A stretch of 42,579 nt of DNA from Bacteroidota bacterium. GTDB lineage: Bacteria; Bacteroidota; Bacteroidia; Sphingobacteriales; Sphingobacteriaceae. The position numbers were made by a program, and so were the translations under genes. The notes beneath the pieces are model-generated. The model did not search any database. It was given only the letters and a program-made list of their open reading frames with translations, and had not been told where the DNA came from. The stretch covers positions 1 to 42,579 of the forward strand of contig JAHJVW010000004.1 in assembly GCA_018828585.1 (NCBI GenBank). The letters run 5' to 3'. Numbering within the stretch: position 1 is the first letter of the stretch; every line of letters begins with the position of its first letter. Below are positions 7,283 through 10,923 of this stretch, piece after piece.

Positions 7283-7311
7283 AAAAAAAGCCACTATGAG
7301 TGGCTCTTTTT
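7283..7311 (-). terminator. Intrinsic terminator of leuS
   Basis: A 7-bp stem (AGCCACT at 7289-7295 with AGTGGCT at 7299-7305, loop ATG) is followed on the minus strand by a U tract from the A run at 7283-7288. It lies about 70 bp past the leuS stop. Confidence 0.75.
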
Positions 7312-7376
7312 ATGTCTAACTTTCTAATTAATAATTCCTGATGCGGGATCAAATTGACGTTTTATGGATTTATCAA

Positions 7377-10300
7377 TTAAATCACGATATTGATAATTCT
7401 TCCCTTTACGACAATTACCTTCTTAGGCGTTTTACCATCCAGATATTTAAGTATCTGATCATTAGCCATCACCTCCTTTTCTACTTCGGCAGGTTCTAGT
7501 GCTAAAGACAATAAAAAATTAGTCTTTGTTTTTCCGTTGACTGATACTGGATAGGCAAATTCATTTTCTATTAAATATTCAGCATTAAATTTCGGGAAAG
7601 ACGCATAAGATAAAGTTCCAGCTTCATTACCCAATAAAACCCAAAGCTCTTCACAAATATGAGGTGCATAAGGCGAAAGAATAATAACCAAATCCTGTAG
7701 GATTGATTTGTTATTAGACTTTAAATCTGTCAGTTCGTTTACGGCAATCATAAAACTAGAAACCGAAGTGTTGAAAGAGAAACGCTCCACATCATCTTCT
7801 ACTTTTTTAATGATTTTATGTAGCGATTTAAGTTCAGCCTTAGTTGGCTCTGTATCAGAAACTGTGAAATTCCAGCTATCATCATGAAACATTTTCCAGA
7901 ATTTTCTTAAGAATTTGAAAACGCCTTCAATTCCGTTGGTATTCCAAGGTTTACTTTGCTCTAACGGACCTAAGAACATCTCATACATTCTTAAAGTATC
8001 TGCACCGTAGCGTTCTACCAAATCATCGGGGTTCACCACATTGTATTTGGATTTAGACATTTTTTCTACTTCTGTTCCGCAGATGTATTTGCCGTTTTCT
8101 AAGATAAATTCGGCATTTGCATATTCTTCTCTGAACGCTTTAAATTTTTCTATATTAAGAATGTCGTTTTCAACGATATTGACATCTACATGTAATGCAG
8201 ATGTTGGGTATTGAGATTTTAAACCATTTGACACGAATTGATTTGTTCCCTTACCTTCTGCATCATTTATCCTATAAACAAAGTTAGATCTCCCCTGAAT
8301 CATCCCTTGATTAATCAATTTCTTAAAAGGTTCTTCTTCGGTTACATAACCTAAATCTTTCAAAAATTTATTCCAGAAACGGCTATATAAAAGGTGCCCG
8401 GTGGCGTGTTCGCTACCACCGATGTATAAATCCACATCTTTCCAGTAAGCGATTTTATCTTGAGCAGCGAAAGCGGTATCATTTTTTGCATCCATATAAC
8501 GGTACCAATACCAACTGCTACCTGCCCAACCTGGCATAGTACTCAACTCATATTCATAGGCCTCACCCCAGCCCTCTCCAAAGGAGAGGGAGTTTTTATA
8601 TTTCCAATCTTTGGCTCTTCCTAGAGGTGGCTCGCCACTTTCTGTAGGCAAATATTTATCTACTTCTGGTAACAGCAAAGGCAATTCATTTTCATCGATT
8701 AAATAAGGTAAACCGTTTTTGAAATAAACCGGAACAGGTTCGCCCCAATATCTTTGACGACCAAAAATAGCGTCACGCATCCGATAATTAATTTTACCAT
8801 AACCCATTCCCAATTTTTTCAATTCCGTAATGATAGTCGTAGTCGCTTCTTTATAACCCATTCCGTTAATGATTCCAGAATTGATGTACTTTCCTTCTTT
8901 TGTTGGGTCAGCTTCTTTGTCGATTTTTTGCGCATCCAAAATCTGGATAATCGGTAAATTGAAATGTTTAGCAAACAAATAATCACGTTGGTCACCAGAT
9001 GGAACCGCCATAACAGCGCCTGTTCCATAACCTGCTAAAACATAATCCGCAATCCAAACTGGAACTTTAACTCCGTTCAACGGATTGATGGCATAACTTC
9101 CCGTAAAAGCCCCTGAAACAGTTTTCACATCCGACATTCTGTCCAATTCGGATTTCTTTTTGGTTGCAAAAATATAAGCATCGATGTCTTCCTTTTGCTC
9201 TGGTGTAGTTAAAGAAGCCACCAACTCATGCTCAGGAGCAATCACCAAAAAGGAAACCCCGTAAGCGGTGTCTACACGAGTAGTAAATACTTCTATATAG
9301 GAAGCCTCATCCCCCGCCTTCTCCGAAGGAGAAGGAGCCACTTGCGTTGTGGATATATTTTGCGAGCTATCTGAAAAAGAAGGAGCTACTTGCGTTGTGG
9401 AAATACTTTGGAGGTTTTCTAACTTAATTTTAATTTGTGAAACAACGTCGTTTGTATGATTGATGACTTGTTCGTTAGTGAAACGAATCACTTCAAACCC
9501 TGCTGCATTCAAAAATTCTGTTCTTTGTTTATCATAAGCAATAGCCTCTTCACTGTTGTGGTAACCTCCATCAACTTCAATCACTAAACGCTTAGGCAAG
9601 CAAACAAAATCAGTGATATAACCTTCAATCACATGCTGCCTTCTGATTTTAAAACCGGTTTGACTATCCCTCAAGCTATTCCAAAGCACCACTTCCGCAT
9701 CTGTCTGATTCTTTCTGTTTTCTTTGGAGTTCTCCTTCAATAAATCCCAAACAAAAGAATTCGCAGTTTCATAACCCCTCTTCTCCTTAACTTCTATATT
9801 CACCTTGTTCTCTTGCGCTCCCTTCTCCTTCGGAGAAGGGTTGGGGATGAGGCTAAACCTCATCATCGCTCCCACACTTTTCCCAATCCAATTGCGCTGC
9901 ATTTCTTTCAGTGGTTCTGGCCAATCAATATCATTTAAACCTTGCAACAAACGTTCTGCATAAGCAGAAATCCGCATGCTCCATTGCATCATTTTCTTTT
10001 GCTCCACAGGATGTCCGCCACGTTCGCTAAAACCATCTTTCACCTCGTCATTAGCCAGAACTGTTCCCAATGCGGCGCACCAGTTCACCGTACTTTCTCT
10101 CAAATAAGTCAAACGATACTTCAACAATTCGGCTTGCTTTTCTTCGGCAGTCATGGTGCTCCAATCGCTTGGTAAAATTGAAAGCACATCTTCATCACAA
10201 ACCGCATTGATTTCTGCCGATGGCATGGTTTCCAATTTTTCAATCAGGGTAGAAATATGCTCGGCTTTGTCAGTATCCTTATTGTACCAAGAGTTGAACA

Positions 10301-10724
10301 ACTGCATAAAAATCCATTGTGTCCATTTATAATAGTCGGACGAACTGGTACGGATTTCTTTACTCCAATCGAAAGAAAAACCCAAATTATCTAATTGTTC
10401 GCGATAGCGATTGATGTTTGCCTCCGTAGTTTTTGCAGGATGTTGACCTGTTTGAATGGCATATTGCTCAGCCGGCAAACCAAAAGAATCATAACCCATT
10501 GGGTGCAACACATTAAAGCCTTTCAGCCTTTTGTACCTCGCGAAAATATCAGAAGCGATATAGCCCAGCGGATGCCCCACATGTAAACCCGCACCACTTG
10601 GGTAAGGAAACATATCTAAAACATAATATTTAGGCTTGCGTTCATCCGCCTCGGCTTTAAAAGTCTCGTTCACTGCCCAAAACTTTTGCCAGTCTTTCTC
10701 TATCTGCTTAAATTGATAATCCAT
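7377..10724 (-). CDS. leuS: Leucyl-tRNA synthetase with an internal DUF559 nuclease module
   Basis: This class I synthetase charges tRNA-Leu and edits mischarged tRNA. The ATG at 10724 gives the usual N terminus [16 protein letters not shown]; the upstream in-frame GTG-type extension is not family-like. The product is 1115 residues, against about 920 expected. HIGH is HVGH at 48-51, KMSKS is near 887, and the editing landmarks VFTTRVDT and [10 protein letters not shown] are intact. About 184 residues (291-474) are inserted between the first two strands of the CP1 editing domain, after [12 protein letters not shown] and before YIEVFTTR. They contain a DUF559 domain flanked by palindromic repeats. 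A second insertion of about 13 residues, [13 protein letters not shown], precedes [13 protein letters not shown]. The frame is open throughout, so an active enzyme is probable. Confidence 0.96.
8559..8594 (+). repeat. In-frame palindromic repeat, copy C (in leuS)
   Basis: This copy has a hairpin of CCCTCTCC (8572-8579), loop AAA, and GGAGAGGG (8583-8590), preceded by GGCCTCACCCCAG. It matches the layout of copies A and B around the DUF559 module and has the same orientation as copy B. It is translated in the leuS frame as part of [11 protein letters not shown], an extra segment between the domain carrying GRAKDW and the conserved [12 protein letters not shown]. Confidence 0.8.
9303..9340 (+). 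repeat. Palindromic repeat, copy B (left end of DUF559 module)
   Basis: The hairpin CCTTCTCC (9317-9324), loop GAA, GGAGAAGG (9328-9335) follows AGCCTCATCCCC. It is nearly identical to the reverse complement of copy A. In the leuS frame it is read as [13 protein letters not shown]. Confidence 0.85.
9331..9410 (+). repeat. Tandem 48-bp units with a decayed palindrome
   Basis: Positions 9331-9362 and 9379-9410 are direct repeats (29 of 32 bases identical, period 48). Each begins with GAAGGAGC and contains ACTTGCGTTGTGG. They encode the repeated peptide ISTTQVAPS. The stretch before the second unit (about 9366-9385) reads like a decayed copy of the same palindrome, so the left end of the module seems to have been duplicated. 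Confidence 0.7.
9819..9855 (-). repeat. Palindromic repeat, copy A (right end of DUF559 module)
   Basis: The perfect hairpin CCCTTCTCC (9820-9828), loop TTC, GGAGAAGGG (9832-9840) is followed by TTGGGGATGAGGCT. It is inverted relative to copies B and C. In the leuS frame it is read as [13 protein letters not shown]. Confidence 0.85.
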
Positions 10725-10751
10725 ATTCGCTCTGATTTTTATATCGTGTTG

Positions 10752-10759
10752 CGAAAATA
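10752..10759 (-). promoter_or_regulatory. Putative leuS -7 box (TATTTTCG)
   Basis: The minus strand reads TATTTTCG, one base from TAnnTTTG, 28 bp before the leuS ATG. The surrounding 14 nt, TTATTTTCGCAACA, also occur before ftsX. No -33 element was recognised. Confidence 0.3.
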
Positions 10760-10842
10760 AAAAATTTAACGTTAGGGACACGTTTTATTTGAAAAGCAAA
10801 GCTTGTGCAACTATTTCCTGATAGTCGGGTGCTTCGCTAGAG

Positions 10843-10861
10843 TCCCAATAAAATATTGGGA
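10843..10861. repeat. Inverted repeat in the leuS upstream gap
   Basis: TCCCAATA and TATTGGGA pair around AAA. It resembles the CCCGATAnnTATCGGG palindromes at 15616 and 19465 and sits in a more GC-rich patch (about 10800-10880, GTGCTTCGCTAGAG...GCCGCTTCGCC) that looks like a repeat remnant. The gap 10725-11122 otherwise holds a terminator, a tiny ORF and a promoter box listed separately. Confidence 0.45.
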
Positions 10862-10923
10862 GCTGCCGCTTCGCCCCCGTTTATTTAATATAATTCACCG
10901 CAATAGGGGAAGGTTCAAAAAAT

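Follow-up and report, generated by a model that had tools for sequence, protein, structure and literature searches.

A hairpin-ended DUF559 unit read in frame within leucyl-tRNA synthetase of Bacteroidota is probably a homing-like element retained without splicing

Inteins are in-frame passengers of conserved genes, patchily distributed at any one site, and in fungal mitochondria endonucleases are fused in frame to the ends of genes. To our knowledge, the palindromic elements of Rickettsia (RPEs) have no nuclease gene, and we know of no enzyme hitherto connected with the spread of protein-coding palindromes of the Rickettsia type. RPEs, like intragenic REPs, are short palindromes within housekeeping genes, and in REPtrons and TIRtrons a tyrosine transposase gene (RAYT or TIRYT) is flanked by inverted repeats that also occur elsewhere, singly and in pairs. 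RPE-1 is reported from the truB gene of R. conorii, and the motif GGGGWSAS for the TIRs of tyrosine transposases (PMC3733652). The EDxHD homing endonucleases, such as I-Bth0305I, are described as residing in self-splicing introns or free, with long DNA-binding regions (PMC3943268). NGO0050 and Caulobacter VsrA, which are DUF559/Vsr-like, are separate proteins, and the excerpts describing them mention no hairpin-bounded in-frame unit; what they have in common with the element studied here is the domain family or fold. In this work we have analysed a stretch of 42,579 nucleotides, called here the window, from a bacterium of the Sphingobacteriaceae, in which the leucyl-tRNA synthetase (LeuRS) gene leuS contains an in-frame DUF559 domain between two hairpins. 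The literature searched, partly in the form of excerpts and with most subscription journals outside its scope, yielded no description of hairpin-bounded in-frame DUF559 units. With the RPEs and the fungal mitochondrial endonuclease fusions as precedents, the class is nevertheless not wholly new in kind.

The leuS open frame lies at 7377-10781 on the minus strand (1134 codons), its likely start codon is at 10724 with the conserved MDYQF, and the frame 7380-10724 gives a full-length LeuRS of about 1115 residues with the insert included. Positions 9303-9854 (minus strand) are 184 stop-free codons that are absent from other LeuRS; this whole unit of 552 bp, AGCCTCATCCCC...GGGGATGAGGCT, occupies in frame what we call site A of the editing domain. 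Over this very interval the preliminary description of this DNA had placed 184 extra in-frame codons for an apparently intact DUF559 domain, and it was right to the base: the frame is open, and the insert belongs to DUF559 (PF04480, at 9420-9740 on the minus strand) with an E value of 4.1e-34 and 117.2 bits against a cut-off of 20.6, covering profile positions 3-108 of 109. Its placement in the editing domain holds as well, for the Pfam match to PF13603 (8820-9305, minus strand; residues 474-635 of 7380-10724) restarts directly past the unit from profile position 20, and tRNA-synt_1 and Anticodon_1 lie on either side of the insert. In insert-free LeuRS, site A reads GA-x-V-x-F or similar, then 2 to about 40 residues, then IEVFTTR or similar. 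Structure modelling, which had also been suggested, succeeded in part: the AF2 model of the DUF559 domain is good (pLDDT 86.6), whereas that of the whole LeuRS is poor (mean pLDDT 58.9) and puts the insert between the predicted strands at 285-292 and at 476-481. In the window's own genome a single LeuRS match passed E<=1e-100 when six of the nine candidates from a first look were scored, so that no second leuS showed up.

The domain model has the common core fold of the PD-(D/E)XK and Vsr nucleases, and NGO0050, I-Bth0305I and Vsr are among its structural matches (3hrl, Z 16.3; I-Bth0305I, Z 13.2; Vsr 1cw0, Z 11.7). A putative active-site stretch at 9531-9695 (minus strand) comprises E27, D55, E66, D68, H72 and D81 in the numbering of alignment A1. 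The putative catalytic E, D, E, D and D are identical in 80 of 80 aligned rows and the H in 79, the rows having been chosen by a pattern that requires part of the catalytic motif; in rows so chosen the catalytic residues are not absent, a point that the preliminary description had left to alignment. When the domain was aligned to 3r3p with HMMER, a comparison of sequences rather than of superposed side chains in which the crystallised protein was taken as it is, mutant or not, E66 and D81 alone faced an identical residue; D55, D68 and H72 faced A, N and W, and E27 lay outside. In six site-A pairs with a measurable host dS of at most 1.2, the dN/dS of the embedded DUF559 is 0.07-0.15, which is higher than that of LeuRS and far under 1, and on these ratios the DUF559 core is under purifying selection. 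The fold, the conserved putative catalytic residues and the low dN/dS favour a working nuclease, and we conclude from sequence and model that the insert probably encodes a DNA-cutting enzyme. Stops inside DUF559 do occur in some copies of the family (e.g. G084:C11, G126:C1 and G154) and in two of the best 80 loci from named genomes (L173 and L223). Searches of PADLOC and PHROGs gave weak matches at most, some of them to homing endonucleases, phage records held three weak relatives of the domain, and the weak matches among viral structures were to Vsr-like and DUF559 phage proteins. The likeness to I-Bth0305I extends to the fold of the catalytic domain and to recurrence at the same site of conserved genes, but no sign of splicing was seen here, and the DUF559 domain comes without a long DNA-binding region such as is described for that enzyme.

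What marks the limits of the insert? It is bounded exactly by inverted repeats, each with a GC-rich hairpin, which the preliminary description had missed. The 5' end of the unit (9817-9854, minus strand) consists of the head AGCCTCATCCCC and the hairpin CCCTTCTCC-GAA-GGAGAAGGG, and the 3' end (9303-9339, minus strand) is its inverted copy, with the hairpin CCTTCTCC-TTC-GGAGAAGG followed by the head GGGGATGAGGCT; the termini form a perfect 12-bp terminal inverted repeat. Written as a pattern, one end is AGCCTCATCCCCAACCCTTCTCCGAAGGAGAAGGGAGC and the other a near copy, inverted. This one-end pattern is expected 0.00 times in the window (100 shuffles), and within 3 mismatches it occurs seven times in the own genome, the window's occurrence included, and the reversed pattern 0 times. 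The only other DUF559 match of that genome is free-standing and lies between repeats of the same type in direct orientation. The unit's 3' end is present twice at 9322-9410, with a spacing of 48 bp: the outer copy is intact, and the inner one (9370-9410, minus strand; 85% to 9322-9362) has decayed. Elsewhere in the own genome, at L007, L008 and L009, we observed lone hairpins or hairpin-like repeats with the head GGATGAGG just before or across the starts of genes that appear by eye to be murG, leuD and an AAA-type gene. Such a head may provide the gene with a start codon, or it may be a scar left by a unit once fused at the N-terminus.

Perfect 7-bp hairpins on both sides were found in 10 of 15 elements at site A, in all four at site B, in one of the two in L058, in 11 of 13 in the mutase, in two of three in the helicase, in both TruB elements, in the one in MetH and in 11 of 20 free-standing copies; the single type ISP and HisH elements and the 14 of the HisF class showed no such pair (0/1, 0/1 and 0/14). 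As a background, 556 of 3000 segments of 255 bases contain at least one perfect 7-bp hairpin. A looser hairpin finder, which was run without such a background and picked up host hairpins in some rows (e.g. L059 and L062), reported hairpins on both sides of 98 of 108 embedded elements. The stems vary by clade but remain paired (CCCTCTCC/GGAGAGGG, CCTTCTCC/GGAGAAGG, CCCTCCCC/GGGGAGGG), and stems and heads co-vary between clades. Left and right heads of the same element agree at 7.37 of 12 positions, compared with 6.17 for shuffled partners (0 of 500 shuffles, kinship uncorrected). Among six site-A units of the genus the identity is 97.5% at the left end, 91.5% at the right end and 74.4% in the DUF559 core, with 85% and 75% in the adjacent leuS; the ends of these six have diverged less than the coding core and are kept as DNA. 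An in-frame ATG ahead of the core is present in seven of 16 site-A units and absent in nine, so that the nuclease may, but need not, be made solely as a fusion. Headed hairpins, inverted pairs and genomic repetition are all REP/REPIN-like, the heads being of the CCTCA or GGGGTGAG type, not GTAG. Compared with the RPEs, with which it shares the truB host as far as the excerpt on them tells, the full unit encodes a nuclease between its two inverted hairpins. It resembles REPtrons and TIRtrons in having a gene between inverted repeats, lone and paired repeats elsewhere and GGGGWSAS-like heads, but its enzyme is a nuclease of the PD-(D/E)XK/Vsr type instead of an HUH tyrosine transposase, and the unit is translated in frame within host proteins. 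By Pfam, DUF559 alone is encoded in the unit, and no HUH tyrosine transposase of RAYT/TIRYT or of IS200/IS605 was found there.

The leuS of the window has a second such place, site B, with a lone hairpin and head in frame (8559-8592, minus strand; CTCCCTCTCC-TTT-GGAGAGGGCTGGGGTGAGGCC) where some relatives have a full DUF559 unit. LeuRS is entered at two places, both of them in the protein of L058, and among relatives each site is found without this unit, with a single hairpin, with a pair of hairpins or with the unit complete; these states were assigned by regular expressions, which misnamed a few rows (e.g. L124 and L149 at site B). The preliminary description had proposed to align LeuRS with and without the insert at the same site, and the genus offers precisely this: DUF559 is present at site A in nine of 18 genomes and absent there in eight, and one genome gave no LeuRS match. 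One of the nine, G108, is a single 3.85-Mb contig. In another, G128, the leuS frame runs off the contig, and in G133 it is broken between DUF559 and the remainder: leuS stops just past DUF559 and LeuRS continues in another frame amid runs of C (L056), either through misassembly or through a true frameshift. Of the 66 rows in our LeuRS tree 15 are filled at site A, and as filled rows were sought out these are not frequency estimates. On this tree the full unit at site A requires 12 changes, 10 of them forced (shuffled mean 13.8), and that at site B three. The LeuRS of the genus form a starred clade, unlike its site-A elements, for which a single clade was rejected (p-AU 0.0003, with the group picked after the first tree); the site-A elements of three small genus genomes cluster with an element of a different genus. 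Labels in the 80-domain tree group by host site with 10 label changes, the minimum possible, whereas shuffles need 50, and the two L058 copies group with the site-A and site-B copies of other genomes respectively. Three of the 80 fetched regions have no row in it: L073, L097, whose motifs are kept by eye and were missed by the pattern, and L098, which has a stop in the domain.

Other material is found in the same loops of LeuRS, which seem to collect several repeat families. L167 (G021) has at site B a different in-frame insert of about 130 residues with a sub-threshold match to MTES_1575 (E 0.0099), which suggests that it is perhaps a second kind of nuclease in the same loop, and at site A or B of L119, L141, L143, L131 and L136 there are other in-frame, repeat-like inserts (GTCGGAAG-like and GGAGAGGGG-like). 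A third variable place of LeuRS, after QGRSNFVYR, was noticed in L139-L168, many of which have extra residues there that are dissimilar and by eye without hairpin peptides.

Any match to DUF559 was present in 125 of 201 genomes of the family and in 222 of 395 in a sample of the phylum. Around the family matches we chose 80 regions by hand so that long frames, frames of HisF size and free-standing genes were all represented, and added 20 LeuRS without DUF559, judged by frame length; named genomes were then scanned with an alignment of embedded domains as the query and the best 80 loci were used. These 80 are Bacteroidota by title and include MAGs, for example of Prevotellaceae, and isolates, for example of Flavobacterium and Mucilaginibacter. 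Site A of LeuRS is filled in 15 of them. By our own rule 14 are free-standing and the other 66 are part of longer frames, with a match to one of 17 host signatures in 57 of the 66; this does not bear out the earlier remark that DUF559 proteins are usually free-standing, in a sample that is skewed to embedded copies because the query was built from them. Pfam analysis of 23 chosen proteins gave 22 host families: LeuRS, IleRS, ValRS, methylmalonyl-CoA mutase, MetH (at two sites), an Lhr-type helicase, HisF, a type ISP enzyme, TruB, RecG, guanylate kinase, Ham1, a PolyA_pol/CCA enzyme, UvrA, RNase H, IspF, UDP-GlcNAc epimerase, DegT, ABC-F, chorismate synthase, an amino-acid kinase and an AAA helicase. 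The domain is an internal insert in some hosts and an end fusion in others (guanylate kinase, IspF, HisF). In the genomes compared, the in-frame architecture recurs across Bacteroidota, and the LeuRS case is one of a hairpin-ended class with many hosts. In many genomes of the family DUF559 is fused ahead of HisF (L079-L090, L092 and L094; HisH in L096), and as the HisF start codon appears by eye to be replaced (GG-L-S/A-KRIIPCLDV), this HisF is apparently synthesised as part of a fusion protein.

The mobility of the hairpin-bounded unit is well supported. In two Flavobacterium genomes (L242 and L246) the element is at two different metH sites, by signature in the B12-binding part and in the activation part; the similarity runs exactly from one hairpin terminus to the other, beginning with AGCCCCCCAACCCCCGAAGGGGG and ending with CCCCCTTCGGGGGCGGGGGGGGCTG, the 900-base slices compared match nowhere else, and the ends are identical over about 27 and 30 bases in an alignment of 76% as a whole. 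The nearest relative is at the same host site for 86 of 102 elements (shuffled mean 10.8, maximum 24, the shuffles ignoring kinship), a set from which five named loci equal to fetched ones and two with an internal stop were left out. The 16 cross-site cases include metH site 1 with site 2, LeuRS site B with TruB and LeuRS with the mutase. Gain, replacement and loss of the unit at fixed sites are also well supported, though not the share that gain has among them; the patchy occupancy can also be explained by many losses. G108 and G018, the latter without the unit, are 98.3% identical over the 300 bases past the site and 92.0% before it, and the elements of G108 and G091 are 95.8% identical, their leuS 88-89% over the same stretches. 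Are the elements, then, younger than their hosts? Four-fold sites do not show this in general: they are numerous enough in 120 of 198 pairs, and in only 37 of these 120 is the element the less diverged; three of the close pairs favour a younger element (P 0.0073, 0.0045 and 0.084) and others the opposite. By the NG86 method the element dS in four close pairs is 0.13, 0.25, 0.53 and 0.07, compared with higher or unmeasurable host values, and the others of the 12 pairs are less clear. With the four-fold sites mixed as well, we set aside synonymous divergence as an argument for homing. A target-site duplication could not be defined, the flanks being too diverged, and neither could a cleavage site.

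The element would work like a homing element, and by the features tested it is neither an intein nor a RAYT/TIRYT element. We think it rather probable that the insert is a homing-like mobile element with hairpin ends, translated in the host protein and retained there without splicing. The selfish, intein-like reading without splicing that the preliminary description had offered fits best in view of the exact ends, the patchy occupancy, the site-faithful lineages, the purifying selection and the lack of intein or intron signs; what did not hold is the picture of an isolated LeuRS case, in place of which there is a class with many hosts. Could the insert instead be excised by protein or RNA splicing? 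Its in-frame position in a conserved gene and its homing-endonuclease-like fold would suit an intein or an intron, but we hold this to be very improbable. The Pfam matches in the insert are DUF559 and a sub-threshold MTES_1575, with no intein module, and none of the 16 site-A inserts ends in HN, in agreement with the earlier statement that no intein splice junctions can be seen. The Rfam matches in 7300-10900 are three at chance level (E 0.72 or worse), none of them an intron, and the leuS frame is open throughout. With inteins the domain shares its in-frame residence in conserved genes and its patchiness at a single site, but it has no splicing module that we could find and seems to stay in the product. 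That the insert is an artefact of assembly or annotation has almost no probability: nothing in the window speaks for it, and the one case that may be an assembly error is the broken frame of the relative G133, whereas the same site is filled in half of the genus genomes, the single-contig one included, and in the 15 named loci. The insert is therefore real, as had been assumed.

It may also be that REP-like hairpins are spread by some other enzyme, for example a Y1 transposase, and that DUF559 is passive cargo between the repeats. Lone and paired hairpins free of DUF559 at the same LeuRS sites are consistent with this, as is the exact stem pattern, present in 68 of 201 family genomes with up to 81 copies (control 0), and the GGGGTGAG heads fit the GGGGWSAS of tyrosine-transposase TIRs reported in PMC3733652. 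However, none of the five Y1_Tnp matches in the own genome has a hairpin of this type next to it, which led us to reject a Y1 transposase as the mover; both DUF559 genes of that genome sit between such repeats, the ends track the DUF559 lineage and the site rather than the genome, and DUF559 is under purifying selection. We regard such hitch-hiking as unlikely, and a domesticated domain, captured long ago, put to use by the host (perhaps in DNA or RNA quality control), inherited vertically and frequently lost, as somewhat less likely again. The low dN/dS, the conserved putative catalytic residues and the sharing of a host site by nearest relatives would accord with domestication; many hosts work on tRNA or in DNA repair, and a mismatch-repair role is proposed for the Caulobacter DUF559 protein VsrA in the excerpt seen (PMC12907096). 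Yet hosts as unrelated as HisF, MetH, IspF and chorismate synthase, a presence that flickers among close relatives, ends conserved as DNA beyond the core and one unit at two non-homologous sites argue against it.

If the insert is indeed a homing-like element kept in the protein, it would be a compact one, a single Vsr/homing-type nuclease gene (DUF559) between two inverted hairpin ends, and we infer that its own nuclease drives the mobility of the unit. Once inserted into a host gene at a loop that tolerates it, the unit would be translated as an extra domain and remain in the protein; because one frame stays open through the whole unit and both its ends, splicing would be unneeded and the host enzyme would still be made. 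The nuclease borne by LeuRS would cut alleles without the unit or with a hairpin alone, and repair would copy the unit into the cut allele, mostly at the same site in relatives and rarely at a new one. The single and double hairpins seen at these sites would be either what is left of former units or spots at which new units can land. More tentatively, with the chances a little short of even, we propose a widespread homing class that needs no splicing, in which a hairpin-ended nuclease gene becomes a tolerated domain of a mature essential enzyme, is hard to silence or delete, and spreads itself to the same loop of orthologues and at times to new genes. Close relatives carry either empty or filled alleles, which makes direct tests possible. 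If the proposal is true, a mobile nuclease could inhabit essential enzymes without introns or inteins. It also suggests an enzyme behind protein-coding palindromes. Many core enzymes of Bacteroidota, including those of gut and rumen Prevotellaceae, may bear a nuclease domain that annotation has overlooked.
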